Of a stretch of DNA of 29,977 bases, positions 19,854 through 29,879 are shown piece by piece; within the stretch, counting starts at the first letter, position 1; the number at the start of each line of letters is the position of its first letter. The notes beneath the pieces were generated by a model that was not told where the DNA came from, did no database searches, and worked only from the letters and a program-made list of their open reading frames with translations. Location: the IMG/VR virus record IMGVR_UViG_3300017991_000316, positions 1-29,977 of that record; one strand, 5' to 3'. Source of the DNA: a virus. A program made the position numbers and the translations under genes.

Positions 19854-20610
19854 CGAATTCCTCTATTTCGTACTCAGCGTCAATAGTGTTCTCTTCTACA
19901 GAGGCATTTTCAATTGCTTCTAATAGTTCTTTTCTTCTCTCAAGTGATAGTTGATCAATGTCCACGGTATTCTGTTTATGCTCAACTGTGCCGGAGACGT
20001 CTATGTCTACTCTACGTGTCTTAGTCCACTCAGGCATTTTCTCGAGCACCCATAAAGTAGTTGGGATTTTACCATCTGTGGAAGTAGCTTCTTTCTCTAA
20101 AGCTGCTGCTAAGTTATCCTCCGCTTTATCTAGCAGGCGTTGTCTAGCATCACCCATAGCCCTTTCTGCGGAATCATAGTGCCTTATATGTTGCTGTACG
20201 ACCCATACTGGAGGAGGTACCTGCAACCCCATAAGGTCTTGTATAATGGGGGCTAGTGCTGAAGCCCCTCCTTTCCCCGCAGTGTGGAGGATGGCGGCTA
20301 GCAGTATCTCTTCAGGAATTATAACCCAACCTCTAACAGCTTGTATTTTTTTAGCTTCATATGGTACATAAGGGCGTATTTCTTTTATGTAGCACTGATA
20401 TAAGTCACTTTCCCTACGGAGCTTCTTAGCCATATTGATCGGATGCATGCCGAAGTAGTCTGCCAAAGCCTTATAGGTAGGGCAAGGTAGACTGCGGATA
20501 GCTTCAGTTAATTCACTAGACGTTATAGGCACACCCGGACGAAAGCCTTTTTGTACTATGTCTTTGTAGTGTGAGGGTGTATCAGCAATGATTTGCTTGC
20601 GTGATTTCAT
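19843..20610 (-). CDS. Terminase small subunit
   Basis: A 255-residue protein at the head of the packaging operon. Residues of about 33-70 form a helix-turn-helix-like region (PCPTYKALADYFGMHPINMAKKL), expected for recognition of the packaging site. The middle (RQRLLDKAEDNLAAALEKEA) is a long helix for oligomerisation; the C-terminal acidic tail (VEENTIDAEYEIEEFD) overlaps the large subunit start. The SD-like TAGGGG is 13 bases from the ATG, longer than usual. Call rests on the DNA-binding N terminus and position directly before terL. Confidence 0.75.
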   Translation of the reverse strand: MKSRKQIIADTPSHYKDIVQKGFRPGVPITSSELTEAIRSLPCPTYKALADYFGMHPINMAKKLRRESDLYQCYIKEIRPYVPYEAKKIQAVRGWVIIPEEILLAAILHTAGKGGASALAPIIQDLMGLQVPPPVWVVQQHIRHYDSAERAMGDARQRLLDKAEDNLAAALEKEATSTDGKIPTTLWVLEKMPEWTKTRRVDIDVSGTVEHKQNTVDIDQLSLERRKELLEAIENASVEENTIDAEYEIEEFDAG

Positions 20611-20650
20611 ATGTTGTATAGTCCCCTAAAGTAAATGTAAGGTCTTCTAT

Positions 20651-20678
20651 ATTATATTATTCCTATTTTCAGCTGCAA
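20651..20678 (-). promoter_or_regulatory. Candidate leftward promoter for the packaging/structural genes
   Basis: On the minus strand TTGCAG (20678-20673) and TATAAT (20656-20651) are separated by 16 bases, about 40 bases upstream of the terminase small subunit start. The -10 is a full match, the -35 matches only the first three bases. Late phage promoters may need an activator, so this is tentative. Confidence 0.4.
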
Positions 20679-20779
20679 ATAACCAAAAATATGTAGAAAA
20701 ATGTGTATTTATTAAAAAATATCAACTATTTCCAAGATTATAGAGTTTTTTCCTTGCGTAAAATGAAAAAAACGGGTTA

Positions 20780-20795
20780 ATATAGTTATACTATA
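20780..20795. promoter_or_regulatory. Palindromic operator candidate, shared with 29137-29151
   Basis: ATATAGTTATACTATA: 6-bp arms TATAGT and ACTATA around TAT. The first 15 bases occur again at 29137-29151 in the large non-coding region. A repeated palindrome in two control-type regions is what a dimeric phage regulator site would look like. Confidence 0.5.
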
Positions 20796-21010
20796 GATTA
20801 CTATGATACTAAGTAGTCTTAGACAGAAACATAAATAAGTTATATTGCAAACTGCCTTGCAGTTTGCGGTGATGGAATTCTAAGCAGTTCATAATAAAAT
20901 ATTAGGGCCATGGAATATAAGGAGATTTAGCTATCTATAGATATATATAGTTTACCTTGGCTCTACTAAGTATTATTAGGATTTTTAGGGATGAATCACA
21001 AACTTTTTTA

Positions 21011-21813: not shown

Positions 21814-21890
21814 ACCTACATAGCTCAGGTGGCTAGAGCAACGGATTTTTAATCCGTAGGCCGCAGGTTCAAGTCCTGCTGTAGGTACCA
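21814..21890 (+). tRNA. tRNA-Lys (anticodon UUU)
   Basis: A complete cloverleaf of 77 bases. The acceptor stem is ACCTACA/TGTAGGT, followed by A and an encoded CCA at 21888-21890. The D arm is TAGCTCAGGTGGCTAGAGCA. The anticodon stem is ACGGA/TCCGT with loop TTTTTAA, giving anticodon TTT at 21848-21850. The T arm is GCAGG-TTCAAGT-CCTGC. Phage tRNAs often supplement codons enriched in phage genes; AAA is common in the AT-rich genes here. It marks the left end of the compositionally distinct module. Confidence 0.95.
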
Positions 21891-23011: not shown

Positions 23012-23346
23012 AGGCAATCAGTTTTGATGAAGCGTGGAAAGTACTACAGTGTCGAGCCTATAACACAGCGACAAGAAAAGGTTGGCATGACGATGAGAAA
23101 ACCGATGGGGAATACATTGCGCTGATGCATTCAGAGTTGTCGGAAGCGTTGGAAGCGTTACGTAAAGACAACCCACCATCTACAAAAATACCTGATTTTA
23201 CATCTCTTGAGGCAGAGCTTGCTGACACTGTAATCCGCATCATGGATTACGCAGAGGCAAAGGATTTAAACGTAGCCGGAGCGATTCTCGCAAAGATGGA
23301 ATTTAACCGTAGCCGTGAGCACAAACACGGTGGTAAGAAGTTTTAA
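23008..23346 (+). CDS. MazG-like nucleotide pyrophosphohydrolase
   Basis: A 112-residue all-alpha NTP-pyrophosphatase. It has HSELSEALEALR (Glu43, Glu46, Glu49) and EAELADTVIRIMDYA (Glu70, Asp73), the two acidic helices that bind magnesium in this superfamily (ExxE ... ExxD), and a C-terminal FNRSREHKHGGKKF close to the usual 'N..R...H...K.F' end. It hydrolyses (d)NTPs or signal nucleotides such as ppGpp in related phage proteins; the true substrate is not readable. Start overlaps the previous gene (ATGA). Confidence 0.88.
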   Translation: MKAISFDEAWKVLQCRAYNTATRKGWHDDEKTDGEYIALMHSELSEALEALRKDNPPSTKIPDFTSLEAELADTVIRIMDYAEAKDLNVAGAILAKMEFNRSREHKHGGKKF

Positions 23347-23362
23347 GGAAGGAGGGGGTGTG

Positions 23363-24499
23363 ATGGGGATTAGGTACTTATCAAAGTTTAGCGGTATAGG
23401 GGGATTCGAACTTGGAATACAGAGAGCCTATCGTGCTGCACAAGCCAAGAGGCAAATACAAGGGACTGCTGACTCGGATATGTCCGGCCATGACGAAAAG
23501 CTCATGGCATCAGAACCACTTTGTGTTGGTTTTTCCGAAATCGACAAGTATGCAAAATCAATCTATCAAAAACACTTTAAGGAGCATAGAGACTATGGAT
23601 GCGCAAGATCAATCAACGAAAAAGAACTGCCGGACTTTGACATGCTTGTCGGAGGTTTCCCCTGTCAGGCTTTTTCAGTCGCTGGAAGAAGGGGAGGATT
23701 CAGCGATACAAGAGGTACGCTCTTCTTTGAAATCGCACGGATTGCTCGGGAAAAGCAACCACGGATTTTACTGCTTGAAAACGTTAAGGGGCTTTTATCT
23801 CACAACAAGGGATATACGTTCGCAACCATCCTCAACGCGTTGGATGAAATCGGGTATGATGCGGAATGGCAAGTGCTTAACAGTACGGACTTCGGAATAC
23901 CCCACAACAGGGAAAGAACCTATATTGTCGGACATCTTAGAGGAACAGGTACACGACAAGTATTTCCTCTCAGACGAGCAGACGCAGCGGTTATTGGAGA
24001 ACACAAAGAAGCAACTCGGCTGATACCGGCTACAGTGGATAAGGTAGATAAACAGGGTAGTGTTTATCTACATAAATTTAACAAAGTTAACGCTAATTGC
24101 CTGTGTGCCAGAGATGCAAAAGGGCTATGTAGAAGCTATAACGTAATCCTCGAGTCACCTGACATTATCAAGACTGCCACAGCCGGCAACTCTCGACCGC
24201 AGCGAGTTAATACAATTGATCGTAGCAGTGTCACTATTGCAGCCACCATTGGTGGCGGTGGAGCTGGCACAGGGTTGTATGCTATACCAGCTCTTGATAA
24301 AGATGCCTATGACGGTTGCAGGATAAGGAGGCTAACTCCTACAGAATGCGAACGTTTACAGGGCTTCCCGGATGGGTGGACGGCTGAGGGTGTGACCGGG
24401 GCTATATCGGATACGCAGCGCTATAAGTGTCTTGGGAATGCCGTAACAACAAATGTGGTCGAGGCGGTTGCCAGTGAACTGTTGGAGTGTTTAGCCTAA
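23363..24499 (+). CDS. DNA (cytosine-5-)-methyltransferase
   Basis: A 378-residue C5-methyltransferase; ATG 23363 is used because GGAGGGGG lies just upstream. Motif I KFSGIGGFELG (8-18), motif IV GGFPCQAFSVAG (97-108) with catalytic Cys101, motif VI LLENVKGL (138-144), motif VIII QVLNSTDFGIPHNRERTYIVG with the RxR-type Arg residues (about 170-190), and motif X GNAVTTNVVEAV (359-370). Residues of about 205-320 form the target recognition part. No restriction endonuclease is next to it, so it is likely an orphan enzyme that modifies phage DNA against host restriction; target unknown. Confidence 0.93.
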   Translation: MGIRYLSKFSGIGGFELGIQRAYRAAQAKRQIQGTADSDMSGHDEKLMASEPLCVGFSEIDKYAKSIYQKHFKEHRDYGCARSINEKELPDFDMLVGGFPCQAFSVAGRRGGFSDTRGTLFFEIARIAREKQPRILLLENVKGLLSHNKGYTFATILNALDEIGYDAEWQVLNSTDFGIPHNRERTYIVGHLRGTGTRQVFPLRRADAAVIGEHKEATRLIPATVDKVDKQGSVYLHKFNKVNANCLCARDAKGLCRSYNVILESPDIIKTATAGNSRPQRVNTIDRSSVTIAATIGGGGAGTGLYAIPALDKDAYDGCRIRRLTPTECERLQGFPDGWTAEGVTGAISDTQRYKCLGNAVTTNVVEAVASELLECLA

Positions 24500-27260: not shown

Positions 27261-27560
27261 ATGAAATATTTACCATATATATTTAGAAGACCCAAAGGAG
27301 CAAAACAAGCAAAACGCAATAAGTGTAGGGCTATTCCCCCGTGTTCTTACTATGACCTTAGACCTGCTAAGATGAAAGCTATTACTTCCTATATCACTAG
27401 GATGCGAAAGAAAAACTATACATATCATGAAGCTATAATCTCTTTGGCTAAGAAATACAACACAACACCCAAACGTGTAAAACGATGGCTTACTAAGGAT
27501 TTGTACAATAGAATATCTGGTGTATACATACAAAACCATATATCAGATGACCTATACTGA
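27261..27560 (+). CDS. Basic protein with helix-turn-helix-like segment
   Basis: A 99-residue, Lys/Arg-rich protein. Residues of about 62-82 read EAIISLAKKYNTTPKRVKRW, the shape of a helix-turn-helix recognition unit as in resolvase or transposase N termini, and the N-terminal half has FRRPKGAKQAKRNK. DNA binding is likely. It begins 11 bases after the previous stop behind GGAG. As a phage early-region DNA-binding protein it may be a regulator, perhaps of the palindromes found here. Target unknown. Confidence 0.6.
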   Translation: MKYLPYIFRRPKGAKQAKRNKCRAIPPCSYYDLRPAKMKAITSYITRMRKKNYTYHEAIISLAKKYNTTPKRVKRWLTKDLYNRISGVYIQNHISDDLY

Positions 27561-27654: not shown

Positions 27655-27915
27655 ATGGAGCAACGAGGAACAGTGTATGATACAAAAGTACTTAACTTGT
27701 TTGAGGCTATGAACGAGCTTGGCTTCACACAGGAGGAAAAGGGAACACTATTTATGCCTATAGTTGAAGAGTACACACCATATAATGATATATACGTAGA
27801 CTCAGTCGGATTACTAGAGTACCCACCAGAAGACATAGCGTTTGGTAAGTTGGCAGAACGGGTTATTGCTGCATACGGCGTAACAGATGACCACTTGTTG
27901 TATATCTCTTGGTAG
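27655..27915 (+). CDS. Acidic protein of 86 residues, last gene of the rightward operon
   Basis: ATG 27655 lies behind GAAAGGAG. The product begins MEQRGTVYDTKVLNLFEAMN, is acidic (many Glu and Asp) and seems globular and helical, with FGKLAERVIAAYGVTDDHLLY at the end. An acidic small protein at the end of an early operon could be a DNA mimic or host-protein inhibitor, but nothing in the sequence proves it. It is followed by the large non-coding region. Confidence 0.6.
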   Translation: MEQRGTVYDTKVLNLFEAMNELGFTQEEKGTLFMPIVEEYTPYNDIYVDSVGLLEYPPEDIAFGKLAERVIAAYGVTDDHLLYISW

Positions 27916-27966
27916 TTCCTTGTCAGATGAGGTATGTCTAAAGTATCTGCAAGCTAGCTCTGTAGT

Positions 27967-27999
27967 AAAGCTGAGATATCAAAGTAGTACCTTAGCTTT
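27967..27999 (+). terminator. Weak hairpin after the rightward operon
   Basis: AAAGCTGAG at 27967-27975 pairs with CTTAGCTTT at 27991-27999 (one G-U pair), loop 15 bases. It is about 50 bases after the last rightward gene, but only a mixed CTGAGGTTG follows and no U run, so termination is uncertain. Confidence 0.25.
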
Positions 28000-28173
28000 C
28001 TGAGGTTGTTTGTGGCTAAGTTGTTGGTGTGCCTAGGTTTAAATCTAAAGGGGGTTCTCAAGAAAATTTTTTGCGCAATCTGAGGGGTGCTCATAAGCAA
28101 CCACCACCCACCCCCGATCTGCAAAAGACCCCCACACCCCCTAGGAGTATAGCCTTATATACCCCCCGTACAC

Positions 28174-28253
28174 CCCTTGTAAGCTCCTGTAATCAATAGT
28201 ACATACGCAAGCACTACCTAAGTCTAACTATTGCACACAGAGGCTTACAGAGG
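28174..28253. ncRNA. Candidate structured RNA: compound symmetric stem-loop
   Basis: Three helices stack in register: TGTAAGC (28178-28184) with GCTTACA (28243-28249), CTGT (28187-28190) with ACAG (28237-28240), and CAATAGT (28194-28200) with ACTATTG (28227-28233). They are separated by symmetric internal loops of 2/2 and 3/3 bases, with a 26-base end loop. Two more C-G pairs extend the base. No promoter is obvious, so transcription and strand are unknown. Confidence 0.45.
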
Positions 28254-28423
28254 CATTCACGGGGCTATTTCTAGATATAGTGGTACTGGCGGGGGATATA
28301 TCTATATATAGTCTTTGGTTTTCACGTGTTAGTTTCGCTTGTATGGGCTTTAGATTGGCTTAGGGTACATATGGGTAGTCTATGGCGGAACTATTGTTTA
28401 TATCCCTTGATTTGGCTATGTAT

Positions 28424-28833
28424 AAACCATACTTATGACTATTGAATTGAGCAATTGAATAATATAGATGGTTTTGTAAGGTCTTGATATGATTATAGTT
28501 ATGAAAGCAGGGAAAGAAAATTGCCTATAGGAGAAGATGAGTTGACAAAAGTCATAAGTATAGTGTGAGCATGAGTAGGGGAGTAGGTGGCTGTATATAC
28601 ATAAGTCTTCGTGTGCTAAGGAGCTTATGACTACTTTAGGTTTATGGCTGCTATGGGTGTACTGGTGGGGTAGAACTGGAGATTGTACAAATAGGACTTA
28701 TGACTATTAGAGTACACGATTGAATAATGTAAGCGCTAGTTGTAAAGGCTAGGGGTGTTTAGGGTTATGGCTTTAGGGGGGCTATGTTTGCCTATAGGGG
28801 ACTTTTGTTTGACCAAAGTCATAAGTATGGTTT
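28424..28833. repeat. Field of ACTTATGACT repeats, direct and inverted
   Basis: ACTTATGACT occurs at 28431-28440 and 28696-28705 (plus), inverted at 28550-28559 and 28817-28826, and with one change at 28623-28632 (plus). The two plus copies belong to a bipartite unit, ACTTATGACTATT, 10 variable bases, then ATTGAATAAT (28431-28463 and 28696-28728). The two inverted copies share TTGAC, one variable base, then AAAGTCATAAGTAT (28542-28561, 28809-28828). AAACCATACTTATGACT at 28424-28440 is exactly inverted at 28817-28833. Start-to-start spacings are 119, 73, 73 and 121 bases. Confidence 0.85.
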
Positions 28834-28939
28834 TATGTGCGTATATGGGTACGATTTTAGGTTGGGGGCTTGGTTTTGGTATGATTTTAGGTTAGTTTTT
28901 GGCGATGTAGGTGCGTCCATGGTGCGGGGGATTCTAGGT

Positions 28940-29031
28940 TTTAGACTATTTTGGGATACACTTTGATCATATTTAGTTACTTTAGACTATTTTGGGATAC
29001 ACTTTGATCATATTTAGTTACTTTAGACTAT
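28940..29031. repeat. 41-bp tandem repeat, two full copies plus start of a third
   Basis: Copies at 28940-28980 and 28981-29021 are identical; the next ten bases (29022-29031) begin a third. Each full copy contains TTTGATCATATTTAGTTAC with a GATC site. A diverged relative (TTTAGATCATATTTAACC) lies at 29196-29213. Confidence 0.95.
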
Positions 29032-29032
29032 A

Positions 29033-29092
29033 TTTGGCTTATACATTTGATTGCTTTGGCTTATACATTTGATTGCTTTGGCTTATACATTT
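29033..29092. repeat. 22-bp tandem repeat, 2.7 copies
   Basis: TTTGGCTTATACATTTGATT plus GC forms the unit at 29033-29054 and 29055-29076; the first 16 bases follow at 29077-29092. It directly abuts the 41-bp repeats. Confidence 0.95.
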
Positions 29093-29136
29093 GGCTATAA
29101 TATGATCAAAAGTAACCCTATTATACACGCGTTGAC

Positions 29137-29151
29137 ATATAGTTATACTAT
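29137..29151. promoter_or_regulatory. Second copy of the shared palindrome
   Basis: ATATAGTTATACTAT, identical to 20780-20794. It begins at the last base of a TTGACA hexamer (29132-29137), but no -10 at proper spacing follows on the plus strand. Confidence 0.5.
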
Positions 29152-29352
29152 GCCAACATCATATCATGATCATAATTAATTAATTACGTACTTACTTTAG
29201 ATCATATTTAACCATGTTACTATATATGGGGGTACGTAATATAGTAATGATTATATATAGCATAGTAATCCTGTTTATTATAATACTATATGGCAATATA
29301 TCTTATTTTTTATACACACAAGTTAACATATTTTGGTAATACTTGTATTGAA

Positions 29353-29388
29353 AGACGTAACTACCAATAATATATGGTAGTTACGTCT
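29353..29388 (-). terminator. 14-bp perfect hairpin, possible terminator of the leftward genes
   Basis: AGACGTAACTACCA (29353-29366) and its exact complement (29375-29388) flank an 8-base AT loop. It is 137 bases beyond the stop of the gene ending at 29525; in the minus-strand transcript TTTCAAT follows, a weak U tract. It might instead be a protein-binding palindrome. Confidence 0.45.
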
Positions 29389-29524
29389 AATGTTATACTT
29401 ATGTTGTCTTTTTGTTATACTTTTGTTGTACTTCTAATAGCTTTTGTAATAATTACCAACTTTAAAATTCATTTTATCCCCTTCACATAGTCAAATCATT
29501 TGGTTAAACTATTTTGCCAACGTT

Positions 29525-29764
29525 TTACATCTCTTTACGTACTACCACATAATCACCTGTTTCATAGTCCAGAAAATTATCACCAACTTTAACCGCAGCA
29601 CATGCCCATCTATCACCACCACACCGCTCTTTAGTCAACCTTAATTTAATCGCTCTATTAGTGCACTTACCGGTGTATTTTTCCCCAAACCCTGTATCCG
29701 CACCCTCACCTGAGATAATGTAAATATTTTCATTTGCTAATTCTTCGTTTGTCCAGCTAATCAT
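29525..29764 (-). CDS. Small protein of 79 residues, unknown function
   Basis: ATG 29764 follows CAGGAG at an 8-base distance on the minus strand. The product begins MISWTNEELANENIYIISGE, has GKCTNRAIKLRLTKERCGGD with two cysteines, and ends GDNFLDYETGDYVVVRKEM, a compact beta-type small protein. It is the last gene of a leftward group that enters the window from the right and converges on the rightward operon. No family recognised. Confidence 0.65.
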   Translation of the reverse strand: MISWTNEELANENIYIISGEGADTGFGEKYTGKCTNRAIKLRLTKERCGGDRWACAAVKVGDNFLDYETGDYVVVRKEM

Positions 29765-29879
29765 TTTTTATCTCCTGTTTGTTATAGTTTGATTCGTCAA
29801 GATTACGTGCTATGTATTCGGCTGTATCTTCTGGTTTCTCTATTTTATACGGATACGTAGCACGTAATCTGTGACTTTA
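29765..29879 (-). pseudogene. Remnant of a small gene with an in-frame TAA, overlapping an inverted repeat
   Basis: From 29876 the minus strand is open in one frame to TAG 29762, with protein-like sequence RLRATYPYKIEKPEDTAEYI followed by ARNLDESNYNKQEIKND. It has no start codon; the frame's only upstream ATG (29891) gives MRLI and then TAA at 29879-29877. The ATG overlaps the previous stop (ATGA) and the remnant's stop overlaps the next start, as in an operon. An imperfect 21-bp inverted repeat (29800-29820 and 29850-29870, 13 bp of it perfect) lies inside. Loss of the 5' coding part or sequence error is likely. Confidence 0.4.
29800..29870. repeat. Long inverted repeat (13 bp perfect, 21 bp with two G-U pairs)
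   Basis: AGATTACGTGCTA at 29800-29812 is exactly complementary to 29858-29870. The stem continues to 29820/29850 with two wobble pairs. The loop is 29 bases. It lies within the remnant gene, so it may be a mutational by-product or an mRNA element before the next gene. Confidence 0.8.

Follow-up and report, generated by a model that had tools for sequence, protein, structure and literature searches.

What function, if any, is served by five copies of a short box that stand in both orientations within the sole long gap between the genes of a viral record? The window, that is, the whole stretch of DNA analysed here, is the entire IMG/VR virus record IMGVR_UViG_3300017991_000316, with a length of 29,977 bases; end repeats are absent, so the record is probably a fragment of an incomplete phage. 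It carries leftward structural genes, including those for a portal, a terminase large subunit and a capsid-like protein, together with a rightward cluster encoding a C-5 cytosine methylase, nucleotide pyrophosphatase-like and deoxynucleotidase-like products and small proteins. The rightward cluster is followed by the non-coding stretch and then by a leftward 79-aa gene, and the convergent genes 27655-27915 (+) and 29525-29764 (-) form the borders of this gap. The array sits inside the gap, where the rightward cluster of genes ends, and the record ends 450 bp beyond the array and its origin-like surroundings.

Several other features of the record were observed. A tRNA-Lys (TTT) gene is found at 21814-21890, inside the rightward cluster, and an Rfam scan gave no match besides this tRNA. 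Judged from base composition, CCWGG (1 occurrence vs 33 expected), GGCC (19 vs 56.6) and GATC (52 vs 110.7) are scarce in the whole window and GTAC (173 vs 110.7) is in excess, meaning that some restriction or methylation sites are strongly avoided in a phage with its own C-5 cytosine methylase (23315-24499). At 47-60% identity, relatives of the 79-aa protein are found in phages that are otherwise unrelated, one of them a 142.6-kb Desulfovibrio phage, and the gene for this protein appears to be a small mobile gene to which no known family is assigned; a 21-nt, 90% inverted repeat at 29800-29870, upstream of it, is a possible operator. A perfect 14-bp stem with an 8-nt loop at 29353-29388 may be a terminator. 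On the + strand, a C-rich patch at 28101-28200 precedes a non-coding, G-rich segment at 28301-29000 with strong G-over-C asymmetry (skew ~0.3-0.6).

Boxes of the array

A preliminary description of this DNA had listed five box copies in the order +, -, +, +, - with start spacings of 119, 73, 73 and 121, and this arrangement holds, four copies being exact and one carrying a single mismatch (Table 1). The 17-bp inverted repeat that it attributed to the outermost copies (28424-28440 and 28817-28833) is perfect, with 376 nt between its arms, and the TTGAC reported beside both inverted copies was confirmed in the sequence. A second box had been placed at a fixed distance of 10 nt from two of the copies; the second box, ATTGAATAAT, is indeed present at 28454 and 28719, but the distance is 13 nt after the 10-bp box, and 10 nt is obtained only when the box is read as ACTTATGACTATT.

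The clustering had also been described as beyond chance, and the counts agree. Within 500 bp, a count of at least four copies is reached by ACTTATGACT alone among the 10-mers of the window, and when the local region was dinucleotide-shuffled 400 times, no 10-mer ever reached this count. If one mismatch is permitted, the whole window holds six box matches against 3.34 expected, an unremarkable number, and five of the six fall within 396 bp; the full-window motif search that had been proposed thereby shows local clustering, with equal density seen nowhere else. The five copies are not equivalent to five independent events; for the most part they go back to a single duplication of a module with two boxes.

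Table 1. Positions of the array elements and of neighbouring features within the window
Feature	Position	Strand	Remarks
Non-coding stretch, 1.6 kb	27916-29524		ORF list and gap scan; sole long gap of the record
Module copy 1	28419-28564	+	site A 28419-28466, variable middle, site B 28521-28564
Box 1, ACTTATGACT	28431-28440	+	exact; site A, copy 1
ATTGAATAAT	28454-28463	+	13 nt after box 1
TTGCCTATAGG	28521-28531	+	first element of site B, copy 1
Box 2, ACTTATGACT	28550-28559	-	exact; site B, copy 1; TTGAC on its + strand left side
Box 3, GCTTATGACT	28623-28632	+	one mismatch; lone, between modules
Module copy 2	28684-28831	+	site A 28684-28731, variable middle, site B 28788-28831
Box 4, ACTTATGACT	28696-28705	+	exact; site A, copy 2
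ATTGAATAAT	28719-28728	+	13 nt after box 4
TTGCCTATAGG	28788-28798	+	first element of site B, copy 2
Box 5, ACTTATGACT	28817-28826	-	exact; site B, copy 2
41-bp tandem repeat	28940-29037	+	2.4 copies; TTTGATCATATT and a weak box-like ACTTTAGACT in each
GATC cluster	28965-29203		five sites in ~240 bp; whole window 52 vs 110.7 expected
22-bp tandem repeat	29033-29093	+	2.8 copies; iteron-like; repeat analysis
Inverted TTTGATCATATT	29099-29110	-	motif search
AT-rich stretch	29131-29480		candidate unwinding element; window's highest 300-bp A+T
TTATACACA	29310-29318	+	exact DnaA-box consensus; single in region

A duplicated module of two facing sites

Repeat searches and alignments recover two diverged copies of one module of ~150 bp, offset by 265-267 bp. 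Each copy contains a composite site A, made of the box, 13 bp and ATTGAATAAT, and a composite site B, which faces site A and is made of TTGCCTATAGG, 18 bp including TTGAC and the inverted box, the two boxes of one module starting 119-121 bp apart. Both sites align without gaps between the copies, site A with 35 of 48 positions identical at an offset of 265 and site B with 35 of 44 at an offset of 267, and the homology persists when the four boxes are masked (better than 1000 of 1000 shuffles). Extension of the duplication beyond the modules was rejected on either side, the weak local scores of 30-34 being at about the level of shuffled module sequence.

The two copies serve as a natural internal comparison showing which bases and spacings matter. 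Box positions are identical at 20/20 against 88/146 elsewhere (Fisher p ~9e-5, an optimistic value because the choice of boxes followed inspection of the data and the alignment is itself biased towards identity). The spacer within site A measures 13 nt in both copies although only 6 of its 13 positions are identical, and that within site B measures 18 nt in both at 10/18 identity. The stretch between A and B comprises 54 nt in one copy and 56 nt in the other, and its alignment needs several indels, which makes a protein-coding role unlikely. Kept boxes and rigid intra-site spacing in diverged copies point to selection on rigid bipartite protein sites, since fixed boxes, fixed short distances and loose DNA between them form the pattern that composite protein-binding sites would be expected to leave.

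The same comparison bears on whether the array does anything at all. Duplication alone turns two exact copies into four, and no relative confirms constraint, as would suit duplicated non-coding DNA without function in which box identity reflects chance and recent ancestry; against this, boxes and internal spacings stayed exact while identity over the remainder of the module fell to ~60%, and we regard this account as improbable. The array is real and probably functional. Marginally less credible still is a remnant of a small, MITE-like mobile element with terminal inverted repeats, duplicated later and now without function. In module copy 1 the inverted ends do match over 19 nt at 89%, 101 nt apart, but the flanking match is just 3 bp (TAT) and gives no convincing target-site duplication, no copies occur elsewhere in viral contigs or in phage and plasmid collections, and in copy 2 the inverted match shrinks to the ~10-bp box while the internal ATTGAATAAT and TTGCCTATAGG are kept, which is not expected from neutral decay.

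Duplication also accounts for most of the mirror-like order that had been proposed. Order and spacings are real, but the symmetry is mostly a by-product, because duplication of an inverted pair gives +, -, +, - with equal inner spacings and hence a mirror look. The lone box at 28623 stands midway between the modules, and the accessory boxes track the direct duplication, not the mirror. A nested single-strand fold was considered and set aside: its stem is stable (DNA z -3.5; RNA z -2.25 and -1.32), but this follows from the inverted boxes themselves.

A recombination site would draw on the same geometry, whether the boxes are arm-type integrase sites of an attP or the 17-bp inverted repeats delimit an invertible segment: inverted boxes that face each other across a central stretch are reminiscent of arm-type sites, and the perfect repeat flanks 376 bp. 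Lambda-type attP arm-type sites resemble the array in that boxes of ~10 bp are spread, in both orientations, over a few hundred bp; they differ in that here a recognisable core site is absent and no integrase is found in the window or in relatives. Tyrosine integrases gave 0 matches in the window and in the records of ten relatives, all possibly fragments, and serine recombinases gave none in the window or in four relatives. With the accessory boxes following a direct duplication and not an inversion, a role in recombination is about as improbable as the absence of any function.

Surroundings of the array and its candidate functions

Directly to the right of the array lies a succession of repeats. 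TTTGATCATATT occurs there in three exact copies and one with a single mismatch, in both orientations, and is followed by the window's peak of 300-bp A+T (76%, at 29171). The box-like ACTTTAGACT in the 41-bp repeat was rejected as a true box, 38 of 300 shuffles being as good. The DnaA-box consensus TTATNCACA occurs three times in the window against 1.68 expected by chance, one of these, at 29310, in the region, and two of the five clustered GATC sites stem from the tandem repeat; as evidence for an origin, both the GATC cluster and the single DnaA box are weak by themselves. Taken together, boxes, tandem repeats, AT-rich DNA and a DnaA box correspond to the usual anatomy of an initiator-dependent origin: repeats are present as boxes and as 41-bp and 22-bp tandem repeats, and an adjacent AT-rich region is present as judged from A+T content.

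The suggestion that the array resembles binding sites for an initiator or regulator therefore stands in part, a protein-binding array fitting best with the kept boxes and spacings and the origin-like surroundings, while the mirror geometry cited for it is mostly duplication. Our leading reading, at a probability of roughly 0.4, is that the array forms the part of a phage replication origin to which an initiator binds; a regulatory array comes second. Direct repeats spaced by ~20 bp are the norm in origins, and the distances of 73-121 bp between the boxes, in both orientations, count against the origin reading. Initiator, helicase and primase were not recognised in the window, which is a fragment, nor did Rep_3 and DnaB-like profiles match in it. 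DnaB-like helicases are present in two relatives, distinct from those carrying ParB_N.

The sequence itself shows that a module of facing sites A and B was duplicated and that the copies diverged while boxes and intra-site spacings were kept. If the array does belong to an origin, its action may be pictured as follows. A phage protein, with partners at the second boxes, may bind A and B and loop or wrap the ~120 bp between them, and the two A/B complexes would combine with the lone box in a nucleoprotein assembly. With the iteron-like tandem repeats, this assembly would open the AT-rich DNA at 29130-29480, where host DnaA (at the 29310 box) or a phage helicase loader would then start replication; the initiator gene presumably lies in the unsequenced part of the genome. 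It is conceivable, though unlikely, that the locus is a phage origin or segregation site of a new kind, in which duplicated modules of rigid facing composite sites ~120 bp apart are paired via looping by an uncharacterised phage protein; if true, such a design would differ from packed direct iterons.

Alternatively, the locus may be a transcription control region, with the boxes as operators or activator sites for a phage regulator and site A doubling as a rightward promoter that makes a non-coding or priming RNA. Looped inverted operator pairs ~120 bp apart are common in known regulation and fit this explanation. At both A sites, ATGACT-17-AATAAT provides a -35-like and a -10-like element of weak sigma-70 resemblance with a conserved 17-bp spacing, but promoter-like sites are not enriched (11 found vs 11.7 expected), the presumed transcription starts near 20600-20960 have no box upstream of them, and the rightward direction offers no downstream gene before the convergent gene at 29525. 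A small HTH-like gene is nearby, at 27261-27560; structure prediction gives its 99-aa product three helices in an HTH-like arrangement at low overall confidence (pLDDT 59.7), with weak homeodomain-like structural matches (best PDB E 0.18) and a Pfam match, below threshold, to a late-transcription coactivator. The weak HTH prediction counts against the regulatory explanation, and the product is at best a weak candidate binder, nothing more. Transcription control is doubtful, albeit the most credible of the alternatives to an origin.

Short-box arrays in both orientations in non-coding DNA are also typical of plasmid centromeres. The array was weighed in the same way as a partition or centromere-like site, or a packaging site, to which a ParB-like protein or a terminase of the phage would bind. 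P1 parS, a bipartite plasmid centromere with A and B boxes, is similar in that short boxes of two types keep a fixed spacing relative to each other and stand in several orientations; it differs in its sequences, and the record presented here has an adjacent AT-rich, origin-like region and, within the window, neither ParA nor ParB genes. Two distant relatives (G002 and G006) carry ParB_N-like genes, but ParB is absent from the window and ParA/AAA_31 has no match in the window, a fragment, or in four relatives. Packaging by way of cos or pac sites, which are usually at or near the small terminase gene, is disfavoured by the 8 kb between the array and the terminase genes. We consider a partition or packaging role rather improbable, though less so than recombination.

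Relatives and known systems

Order and spacing could in principle be followed among relatives, and the best terminase match reaches ~50% identity in viral contigs and 40% in named phages, with homology extending to the neighbouring structural genes. The array, the non-coding stretch and most early genes are absent from all of these terminase relatives (80 viral and 55 bacterial-assembly loci), and no relative of the array was found in viral contigs, in phage or plasmid records or among ~150 loci. No relatives of the neighbouring 203-aa and 99-aa proteins were found, and the five loci with relatives of the 79-aa protein do not share the array. Pattern scans of all viral contigs with each composite site and the inverted pair gave either nothing or two single chance matches. 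Two arrays encountered in this search were dismissed, a direct-repeat array in L084, which is unrelated, and mixed-orientation repeats in the relative G003 (L094), which are coding repeats inside the gene for a 1636-aa repetitive protein. In that distant relative, the protein (L094:6239-11149) has many AIG-type repeats, appears by eye to be tail-fibre or YadA-head-like, and its coding repeats mimic a mixed-orientation array of DNA sites. Another viral contig (L153:1-5000) shows only short ORFs when read with table 11 and may use a recoded genetic code.

A literature search for the box string returned unrelated matches only, none in a phage context. The motif is thus without an earlier phage-context record in the literature searched, and the kind of element is already known. 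The initiator of the PLE of Vibrio cholerae binds within non-coding DNA, at a repeat that contains 13-bp inverted sub-repeats (PMC7145576). This satellite origin, with its RepA_N initiator, is like the array in being a non-coding repeat region of a phage-related replicon, its iteron containing the 13-bp inverted sub-repeats, but RepA_N iterons are mostly semi-palindromic direct repeats that converge on a poly-A tract (PMC7145576). The array, in contrast, has inverted boxes ~109 bp apart in composite sites, its sequence is unrelated, and an initiator is not seen in the window. In lambda-like origins, initiator-binding repeats are combined with an AT-rich segment (PMC7466680); the O protein iterons and the repeats described here, which are putatively initiator-binding, both lie beside an AT-rich tract, but the O gene itself contains the lambda-like iterons, four to six in number, whereas the boxes of the array are sparse, in both orientations and non-coding.

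If the locus is not an origin, it would be a clear case of a 'mirror-symmetric' site array born from duplicating one inverted pair. If it is an origin, a phage lineage without a cultured close relative would gain a replication start that is tractable in experiments.
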